IMG/VR virus record: IMGVR_UViG_3300025828_000219
Location: 1 to 22,257 of that record
DNA from: a virus
Strand: one strand, 5' to 3'
Length of the DNA: 22,257 nucleotides
Shown: one piece after another, positions 2,331 through 15,045 of the stretch
Numbering within the stretch: position 1 is the stretch's first letter
Layout: the number at the start of each line of letters is the position of its first letter
The notes under the pieces: model-generated
The model's input: the letters and a program-made list of their open reading frames with translations, nothing else
What the model was told of the DNA's origin: nothing
Database searches by the model: none
Translations under genes and position numbers: made by a program

Positions 2331-2411
2331 ATGGGAGTATTAGCAATTTGTGCGCTGCTTATGTTCTGCGCACTTTTTATCTGGCTTATTCTAGGAGAAT
2401 GGTTTAGATAA
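2331..2411 (+). CDS. Tiny single-pass membrane protein (26 aa)
   Basis: A 26-codon frame, MGVLAICALLMFCALFIWLI then LGEWFR, that is almost entirely one hydrophobic helix. It starts 2 bases after the previous stop and ends just before the tmRNA. Position and hydrophobicity support a real gene; its role (membrane or host-modifying small protein) cannot be read from the sequence. A similarly placed 33-aa membrane protein lies at 14276. Confidence 0.5.
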   Translation: MGVLAICALLMFCALFIWLILGEWFR

Positions 2412-2483
2412 ATAAAGATGTTCGTTGATGATAGATGGATTAATATGAACAAGACGGGGTTTCGAATACCCCCTGCTCCACCA

Positions 2484-2535
2484 TTATTTATACAAATCAA
2501 TCCACCCACATACACCGGATAGTATAAATAATTAT
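2484..2535 (+). other. tmRNA intervening segment with 11-bp inverted repeat
   Basis: The 52 bases between the encoded CCA and G1 of the coding piece would be removed during maturation. ATTATTTATAC (2483-2493) and GTATAAATAAT (2522-2532) are perfect complements around a 28-base loop. This stacks beyond the acceptor stem after a 3x3 internal loop, giving a long precursor hairpin that could guide processing. Confidence 0.85.
2523..2530 (+). promoter_or_regulatory. Possible late promoter inside the tmRNA intervening segment
   Basis: Exact TATAAATA. With T4 late-promoter spacing (box at about -13 to -6) the start site would fall at 2536, the first base of the mature coding piece. The same bases also form one arm of the precursor hairpin, so the match may instead reflect RNA structure. 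Confidence 0.4.
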
Positions 2536-2618
2536 GGGGCAGAACTGGGAATCGATTGGCATAAGATGTTCATCAGGAGACAAACCGATTGATACCGTAA
2601 GTATCACTTAAACTAAAT

Positions 2619-2663
2619 GCTAACAACTATGTAGCACCTAAGGCTTACGCTCTCGCAGCATAA
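2619..2663 (+). other. tmRNA tag reading frame (ANNYVAPKAYALAA)
   Basis: Fourteen codons beginning with a GCT resume codon and ending GCA GCA TAA encode ANNYVAPKAYALAA. The Ala-Asn-Asn start and the ALAA end match bacterial proteolysis tags recognised by ClpXP-type proteases; with the charged Ala the full tag would be AANNYVAPKAYALAA. A TGATAC/GTATCA hairpin (2590-2606) upstream is in the position of pseudoknot PK1. Confidence 0.9.
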
Positions 2664-2676
2664 GTTCTGTGGGTCC

Positions 2677-2713
2677 GATGGGAACCTAGAAACAGAATCC
2701 CATCACTCTAACA
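2677..2713 (+). repeat. 37-base direct repeat, copy 1
   Basis: Runs from GATGGGAACC through CCTAGAAACAGAA (2685-2697) to ATCACTCTAACAA. It recurs at 2841-2878 with one extra C and one C-to-T change. GATGGGA can pair with TCCCATC (2677-2683/2698-2704). TTCTGT (2665-2670) can instead pair with ACAGAA (2692-2697) after the tag stop, like tmRNA helix P5. Confidence 0.85.
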
Positions 2714-2954: not shown

Positions 2955-3118
2955 ACACTTTTCAATGCTTTCGGGTATTAGGTATTGAAGAGTTACCGGG
3001 CTACGCCCACGGGCTTGCGTATGCAGGCCGATTCCGGAACAGAAATGTAACTGGTCTTAAATACCCACCGGGCATCTGAGTCGGCCTAGAAACAGAAGGG
3101 TTCACTACCCAGTCTCAG
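2955..3118 (+). ncRNA. GC-rich structured segment, possible novel ncRNA
   Basis: No convincing protein frame. Complementary segments include GGGTATT (2973-2979) with AATACCC (3060-3066), AGGCCGA (3025-3031) with TCGGCCT (3081-3087), GGCTTGC (3012-3018) with GCAGGCC (3023-3029), and CTGAG (3076-3080) with CTCAG (3114-3118). Some are mutually exclusive. It contains the third CCTAGAAACAGAA copy (3085-3097) and is followed by a terminator. GC content is clearly above its surroundings, as expected for a stable RNA. Confidence 0.45.
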
Positions 3119-3123
3119 CTTTT

Positions 3124-3142
3124 AAAAACACTAGATGTTTTT
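3124..3142. terminator. Probable bidirectional terminator
   Basis: AAAAACA-CTAGA-TGTTTTT forms a 7-bp stem with a 5-base loop between convergent transcripts: the tmRNA/tRNA region on plus and the late operon on minus. The A/T-rich arms give a U-rich tail in both directions. Confidence 0.55.
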
Positions 3143-4881: not shown

Positions 4882-5310
4882 CTATTGGAATTGTAATGCC
4901 CGAAGTTGTTGTATCTCTTGTTCAAGGCGCATCACTTCCAACTGTTTCTTACGCAGTTCGAGTAAATAAAGTTCATTACAGTCAATTCTTGACTTTGGTT
5001 TTTGACCTAAAGGAATGATAATTCTAGCAAAGACACCAACGTCTCCGACCCGTGAATCAACATAACCAGAAAGAGGATCAGTATATCCTCTGCCAATAAT
5101 GCCAGTAACACCAAACTCTAAATTCGTGGCACTACCAATTGCATTAGAACAGTCTAGGTCACCAGCCTTAAATCTATCTGATTGATAACTACCCGGAGCA
5201 GTAGGCAAAGATAGATTAAGAGAACTGGACTGTCCAAATGCAACAGTTGATAAAAGTAATAACATTATGAGTGCTAAAAGGAATAATTTTGATATATTAT
5301 AGTTAATCAT
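4882..5310 (-). CDS. Secreted protein with C-terminal coiled coil
   Basis: A 142-aa protein with a signal peptide (MINYNISKLFLLALIMLLLL, cleavage near AFGQ). The middle is beta-rich (NLEFGVTGIIGRGYTDPLSG, then VGVFARIIIPLG) and could be a short beta-hairpin or barrel-like part. Two cysteines (DCSNA, IDCNE) may form a disulfide. The C-terminus (ELYLLELRKKQLEVMRLEQE) is a coiled coil. A 31-bp tandem duplication covers its first codons and ribosome binding site. Function unknown; the operon suggests an envelope-surface assembly. Confidence 0.75.
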   Translation of the reverse strand: MINYNISKLFLLALIMLLLLSTVAFGQSSSLNLSLPTAPGSYQSDRFKAGDLDCSNAIGSATNLEFGVTGIIGRGYTDPLSGYVDSRVGDVGVFARIIIPLGQKPKSRIDCNELYLLELRKKQLEVMRLEQEIQQLRALQFQ

Positions 5311-5349
5311 ATTACACCTTTGATATATTATAGTTAATCATATTACACC
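5288..5349. repeat. Perfect 31-bp tandem duplication over a start codon
   Basis: Two identical 31-base units (5288-5318 and 5319-5349). On the minus strand each carries AAAGGTGTAATATG plus the first codons of the 142-aa secreted protein. The upstream copy therefore makes a nine-codon frame (MINYNISKV) ending in TAA at the real ribosome binding site. Confidence 0.95.
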
Positions 5350-5717
5350 TTTGAGCATATTCTTGAATTAATACCAGTAGATTGTGTGTCTTCTAAAATT
5401 CTCTTAGATGTGGTGCAGATATACTTAATACGATTAAAGTCTTTTTCTCTGATGTAAATATCAACAGACTTTTGACCTAAGTATGAAACATTAATTAATT
5501 TTTGTGTAGAAGCAAAAGGCACAGTATTCCAGTCTTCATCATAGACTGAAATCTCATAGTATTCTATATCTTTTCTTTTGTTGAAAAGTGTCATACTGGT
5601 CACAACAATACCGTCTAAGAATGAGGGTTCAAACTTAGGATAGGTTGGAGTCCATTCATGTGCCTGTGCAGTAGTAGCCATCAAGACTGCCACCACTGCC
5701 GTAATAAATTTTTTCAT
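5343..5717 (-). CDS. Secreted PapD-like (Ig-fold) small protein
   Basis: About 124 aa, starting MKKFITAVVAVLMATTAQAH, a clear signal peptide. The ATG overlaps the stop of the pilin-like gene (TGATG). The mature part (FNKRKDIEYYEISVYDEDW, LINVSYLGQKSVDIYIREKD, IKYICTTSKRI) reads as successive beta strands like the N-terminal domain of periplasmic pilus chaperones. It is shorter than a full PapD (about 230 aa), so it may be a one-domain chaperone or structural partner. Pairing with the adjacent pilin-like gene supports the idea, but similarity is by eye only. Confidence 0.6.
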   Translation of the reverse strand: MKKFITAVVAVLMATTAQAHEWTPTYPKFEPSFLDGIVVTSMTLFNKRKDIEYYEISVYDEDWNTVPFASTQKLINVSYLGQKSVDIYIREKDFNRIKYICTTSKRILEDTQSTGINSRICSKV

Positions 5718-15016: not shown

Positions 15017-15045
15017 GGGGGAGTCTTGCACTCCCCCTTCTCTTT
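15017..15045 (+). terminator. Strong terminator at the early/late boundary
   Basis: GGGGGAGT (15017-15024) pairs with ACTCCCCC (15030-15037) around CTTGC, followed by TTCTCTTT. It separates the early gene run from the late genes and touches the late promoter at 15045. Confidence 0.9.

Follow-up and report, generated by a model that had tools for sequence, protein, structure and literature searches.

tmRNA releases stuck ribosomes and tags the unfinished proteins, and a tmRNA gene found in a phage is usually taken to be a stray host gene or a marker of the host. The locus at positions 2418–2704 (+) of the DNA studied here, a complete IMG/VR record (22,257 bases) that is called the window below, raises the question whether such a gene can be a property of the phage itself. 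The locus encodes a circularly permuted (two-piece) tmRNA with the tag ANNYVAPKAYALAA, and we consider it, with a probability of roughly 0.85, to be a functional phage-encoded tmRNA of the alpha type that is passed down in a T4-like phage lineage and is processed, charged and used late in the way proposed below.

The permuted gene and its structure

The window contains T4-like genes for UvsX, a DnaB-type helicase, ThyX and a virion structural protein. Near-identical DNA was not found among the GenBank phages, and the closest isolates, judged on proteins only, are Kyanoviridae and related phages, with cyanophages, Melnitz and phage C48C1 as the best protein relatives. The Rfam model for permuted tmRNA (RF04321) matches from position 2420 with 76.8 bits (E 2e-13), and the alpha_tmRNA model (RF01849) with 57.9 bits (E 7e-14). 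The cut-offs used are the curated Rfam gathering scores, 47 and 50 respectively, and the second match is only just above; since both scores exceed them, the match to tmRNA lies far beyond chance, and a chance resemblance was ruled out by the two covariance models together with the covariation described below. Sampled host tmRNAs score 131–312 bits with RF01849, indicating that the window tmRNA is divergent, and ARAGORN run on the window missed the gene. The first-pass annotation had read the locus from its letters alone as a phage-borne, complete permuted tmRNA whose tag ends in ALAA, to be checked with these covariance models, and this is borne out by the Rfam matches and by the coordinates, as the CCA end at 2483, the start of the 5' acceptor strand at 2536, the seven of seven acceptor pairs and G3-U70 all agree base by base.

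Table 1. Parts of the permuted tmRNA gene, with positions in the window
Feature	Position	Strand	Details
T4-late-type promoter box GATAAATA	2407–2414	+	49 nt before T arm; no -35 (best 2 of 6)
Acceptor piece, 5' part	2418–2455	+	proposed P2 3' strands GATGA 2427–2431, TATG 2444–2447, CAA 2450–2452
Acceptor piece, T arm to CCA	2456–2483	+	T arm 2456–2472 (GGGGT TTCGAAT ACCCC), acceptor 3' strand 2473–2479 (CTGCTCC), discriminator A 2480, encoded CCA 2481–2483
Intervening sequence	2484–2535	+	52 nt, predicted to be cut out; ends pair (TTATTTATAC/GTATAAATAA)
Coding piece, 5' part	2536–2606	+	acceptor 5' strand 2536–2542 (GGGGCAG; G3-U70), D-loop region, P2 5' strands
P2 5' strands in coding piece, as proposed	2556–2558, 2560–2563, 2570–2574	+	UUG, CAUA and UCAUC, respectively
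Hairpin in PK1 position	2590–2606	+	
Tag reading frame ANNYVAPKAYALAA	2619–2663	+	frame 2619–2660, resume codon GCT 2619, stop TAA 2661–2663
3' H-type pseudoknot	2670–2704	+	S1 TGGGT 2670–2674/ACCTA 2684–2688; S2 GATGGGA 2677–2683/TCCCATC 2698–2704; A-rich loop GAAACAGAA 2689–2697

The T arm and the CCA are located upstream of the 5' acceptor strand, which is the permuted layout, and the tag frame has both a resume codon and a hydrophobic end before the stop (Table 1). An inverted repeat with arms of 21 nt at 2473–2493 and 2522–2542 (86%) extends over the two acceptor strands, so that the complementary ends of the intervening sequence prolong the acceptor stem. P2 had at first been drawn as GTTCAT (2568–2573) with ATGAAC (2445–2450). 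This is a genuine complementarity of six nucleotides but it was not upheld as P2, because C2450 is shared with a set of pairs, UUG/CAA, that covaries in relatives. By comparison P2 is best drawn as UUG/CAA, CAUA/UAUG and UCAUC/GAUGA (positions in Table 1). When L016, a close relative, is folded as two pieces, the result contains UUG/CAA, CAUA/UAUG and a helix that includes UCAUC/GAUGA, and the UUG/CAA pairs of the window are replaced by CUG/CAG in the relatives L075–L078; the pairing drawn at first lacks support of this kind. P2 was not recovered in the minimum-energy fold computed for the window and thus rests on comparison; for the coding piece taken alone, such folding gave no better result than shuffles.

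For the comparison 38 distinct permuted tmRNAs from viral contigs with the common 3' pseudoknot loop CCUAGAAACAGAA were used, the window included. The acceptor stem occurs as 13 sequence types in this set, all of them paired; pairs 4-69 to 7-66 vary on both sides with Watson-Crick pairing kept throughout the 38 sequences, while G1-C72, G2-C71 and G3-U70 are invariant, the latter in 38 of 38. Covariation is found at each of the five pairs of the T stem, where a closing U53-A61 is present only in the window and in L016. In the 3' pseudoknot, S1 (present in nearly all) and the A-rich 9-nt loop are conserved, and S2 has 6–8 pairs and covaries in most of the 38, with quite different sequences outside the window; by an ungapped count it is short or not simple in a few, and L016, L076 and L077 have an extra hairpin inserted at the S2 region. 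The tags of relatives include ANNYVAPKTYALAA, ANNYVAPSRYALAA, ANNYVAPKAYALVA and ANNYDKPSLALAA, and the frame is open in the close relatives and ends in ALAA or similar. Stems of at least 8 pairs with differing sequences are formed by the intervening sequence in most relatives, showing a conserved form and not a conserved sequence.

Several repeats are located downstream of the gene. The hairpin of the 3' pseudoknot is repeated 164 bp downstream (2677–2879, 25 bp perfect), and positions 2698–2724 can pair with 2821–2847 (27 nt, 96%) around a structured core of 96 nt (z -4.75), a helix that would break the 3' pseudoknot unless the RNA is cut or ended near 2705. Among the relatives fetched this element is found only in the window, it matches no Rfam family, and a search with a 17-base pattern gave no relative. 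A tRNA-Ile with anticodon AAT (A34), T at position 37 and an encoded CCA is located at 2881–2954; an isoleucine tRNA with A34 is unusual in bacteria. The region 2955–3125 contains a third CCTAGAAACAGAA motif with an outer stem CTGAG/CTCAG and an inner hairpin, comparable to the pseudoknot of L016, L076 and L077, and CCGGAACAGAA near 3036. It is possible that copies of the 3' end of the tmRNA enclose the embedded tRNA here and form further RNAs. A perfect 31-bp tandem repeat of 2.2 copies (5288–5354) is found at the start of the ORF 5310–4882(-).

Promoter box and time of expression

In 27 of the 38 phage tmRNAs a box resembling TATAAATA precedes the T arm by 45–53 nt, while 11 have none at this position; the background is 0.0029 per 18-nt window, and other offsets gave 0 or 1. 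The box of the window, GATAAATA, deviates from the motif at one position and shares bases with the stop codon of a small ORF upstream. T4-like phages are known to use TATAAAT(A) as their late promoter, and it has been treated as such (PMC9004378). The TATAAATA sequence is also present at 15045, 16453 and 7677(-) of the window, directly before the ORFs 15078, 16494 (virion structural protein) and 7639(-), and these three boxes are probable late promoters of the phage. The lack of a -35 region at the tmRNA box suggests late transcription.

The tmRNA of Melnitz, which has TATAAATA at the same distance of 49 nt before the T arm but together with a TTGACA -35 region, has been called early, from a promoter with this -35 region (PMC9004378). 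Sixteen of the 27 boxed relatives have a -35 region with at least 5 of 6 consensus positions at 15–19 nt, versus 2 of 6 in the window, and could on this basis be read by the host σ70; in addition, the window gene lies downstream of small ORFs that are preceded by a TTGACA-17-TATATT promoter at 1984–2012. All this would agree with a tmRNA that serves mainly for the early tagging and degradation of host proteins, as proposed for Melnitz, and not for late rescue of ribosomes. It is, however, established that tmRNA acts on stalled ribosomes and has no means to select host proteins, and the window box without a -35 region resembles those before the structural genes, and we therefore regard a mainly early role as unlikely. 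Judged by their promoters, late transcription is likelier for the window tmRNA and a mixture of early and late for its relatives, a reading for the window unlike the early use put forward for Melnitz.

Partner proteins and proposed function

No SmpB gene was found in any of the 11 tmRNA-bearing isolate phage genomes searched, and none in 19 of 20 viral records. The exception, record G019 (the record of L213), has an intact SmpB at locus L214 (E 4e-49); its tmRNA is unconfirmed and the record may be cellular. With no SmpB in the 11 isolate genomes, host SmpB is presumably used, and we infer that the phage tmRNA relies on SmpB, AlaRS and proteases of the host. A tRNA-like domain that competes for SmpB and blocks the trans-translation of the host, as suggested for the tag-less DS6A RNA, would likewise come without an SmpB gene, and a phage RNA consisting only of the TLD does inhibit tmRNA (PMC4131195). 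Such a decoy is nevertheless quite improbable here, since the tag frame with its resume codon and the 3' pseudoknot are retained in all close relatives and a decoy needs neither tag frame nor pseudoknot.

The functional tmRNA that we favour would be made from a single transcript, probably begun at the T4-late-type box at 2407, in which the intervening sequence forms a hairpin atop the acceptor stem. After cleavage by host tRNA-processing enzymes, which would act at 2483/2484 and at 2535/2536, two pieces would remain, joined through the acceptor stem and P2, and this RNA could be charged by the host AlaRS via G3-U70. The charged RNA would be brought to stalled ribosomes by host SmpB, with translation restarting at GCU 2619, so that the unfinished protein gains first the charged alanine and then ANNYVAPKAYALAA, which is a typical ClpXP-type degron. 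The phage might profit in that ribosomes stay available during the synthesis and decay of its transcripts.

Phage lineage and the question of host origin

The pattern GGGTY-N3..10-RNCCTAGAAACAGAA was found in 75 viral contigs, with a tmRNA tag upstream in most of them, and the pseudoknot loop in at least 50. The host sample consisted of 385 alphaproteobacterial genomes and two exact-pattern scans: the near-identical pattern (A for R) gave 15 contigs in 84,980 species genomes, none of these matches being a tmRNA by Rfam or tag, and the exact 22-nt pseudoknot string gave no match in the species genomes. The alpha_tmRNA model scored above its cut-off in 348 of the 385 genomes. The host tmRNAs read have the loops CCTGGC, CCTAGC, CCGGGC, CCCGGC or similar, and none in this alphaproteobacterial sample has CCTAGA, about a dozen low-scoring loci being unparsed; the tag ANNYVAPKAYALAA is likewise in no sampled alphaproteobacterial host. 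Matches to CCTAGAAACAGAA in the 385 genomes were read at 12 places and rejected, none being a tmRNA.

In maximum-likelihood trees, built on short sequences of roughly 230 bases each, the window sequence groups among the alpha-type tmRNAs, within a phage-only clade of 10 with a support of 0.96, or 0.98 with 15 low-scoring hosts added; none of the 46 host tmRNAs falls inside this clade. Together with the loop, which none of the host tmRNAs read possesses, this indicates a trait of the phage lineage, rather than a gene copied recently from a host. In L077 the small ORFs upstream and the minus-strand gene downstream flank the tmRNA in the same order as in the window, and one or the other neighbour gene is common to the window and L016 and L114, and to the window and L076 and L082, indicating that the gene has been passed on with the phage and is no fresh capture. 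The gene had first been thought to mark the host group, and of this the alpha-like grouping stands, whereas the phage-only clade, the loop of its own and the gammaproteobacterial host of Melnitz speak against a marker. A recently captured host gene without function in the phage is hardly credible, for although tmRNA genes often serve as integration sites and the 3' end of the tmRNA recurs 164 bp downstream as a perfect direct repeat of 25 bp, the gene is complete, covaries across the phage clade, is syntenic in relatives and has a loop in no host tmRNA read.

Phage-encoded two-piece tmRNA has already been published, and the window gene is a further case. Of 133 unique phage tmRNAs, 53 have the two-piece form, and most of these come from marine or aquatic phages (PMC9004378); 79 phage sequences are contained in a tmRNA database (PMC11915505). 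Melnitz, a Methylophilales phage with an alpha-type two-piece tmRNA and a gammaproteobacterial host, and the Pelagibacter phage HTVC008M (PMC9004378) are marine T4-like (Kyanoviridae) phages and, like the window, carry a permuted alpha-type tmRNA without SmpB. Their tags and 3' pseudoknot loops differ from those of the window (CUUGUAAACAGAA in Melnitz and CCUCGUAACAGAA in HTVC008M), and Melnitz has an additional glutamine riboswitch. The alphaproteobacterial host tmRNA (RF01849) equals that of the window in gene order, G3-U70, short AA-ending tag and AACAGAA type of pseudoknot; its loops start, in the tmRNAs read, with CCUGGC-, CCUAGC-, CCGGGC- or similar, in contrast to CCUAGA-AACAGAA of the window.

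Similarity searches gave permuted tmRNAs in nine alphaproteobacterial isolate phages, infecting Roseobacter, Rhodobacter, Sinorhizobium and Mesorhizobium: DSS3P8, vB_RpoS-V10, MD18, DSS3_MAL1, RcXuper, RcSimone-Hastad, RcRudolph, Phosso and Cp1R7A-A1. These are like that of the window phage-borne, of the permuted alpha type and without SmpB, but have other tags and, where parsed, the loops CCUUGC, CCUAGC, CCUCGA and CCUCGC. Only that of DSS3_MAL1 is annotated as tmRNA, and with eight of nine isolate phages lacking the label and 14 of the 38 permuted phage tmRNAs missed by ARAGORN (the window's included, and a few cut at contig ends) there is a gap in annotation. In four roseophages (L283, L284, L285 and L286) the permuted tmRNA is directly preceded by a GOLLD RNA (RF02032), which in L283 and L286 contains a tRNA-Arg. 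The mycobacteriophages Bxz1 and Wildcat and Bacillus phage G have hosts of other lineages, which are not known to use the two-piece form. These three phages also carry a tmRNA (PMC4131195).

A loop common to many phage tmRNAs but not to those of hosts, with a late-type box at a fixed place, was not described in the literature searched. Tentatively, and at somewhat less than even odds, the tmRNAs marked by CCUAGAAACAGAA may form one or more old phage-owned branches that evolved apart from host tmRNAs and are driven in many T4-like phages by a late box of the phage, where they would replace or supplement the trans-translation of the host late in infection. With strong structural selection on the 38 copies, a loop that the host tmRNAs read do not have and a phage-type box at a fixed place, the question why and when a lytic phage uses a ribosome-rescue RNA of its own can now be tested directly.
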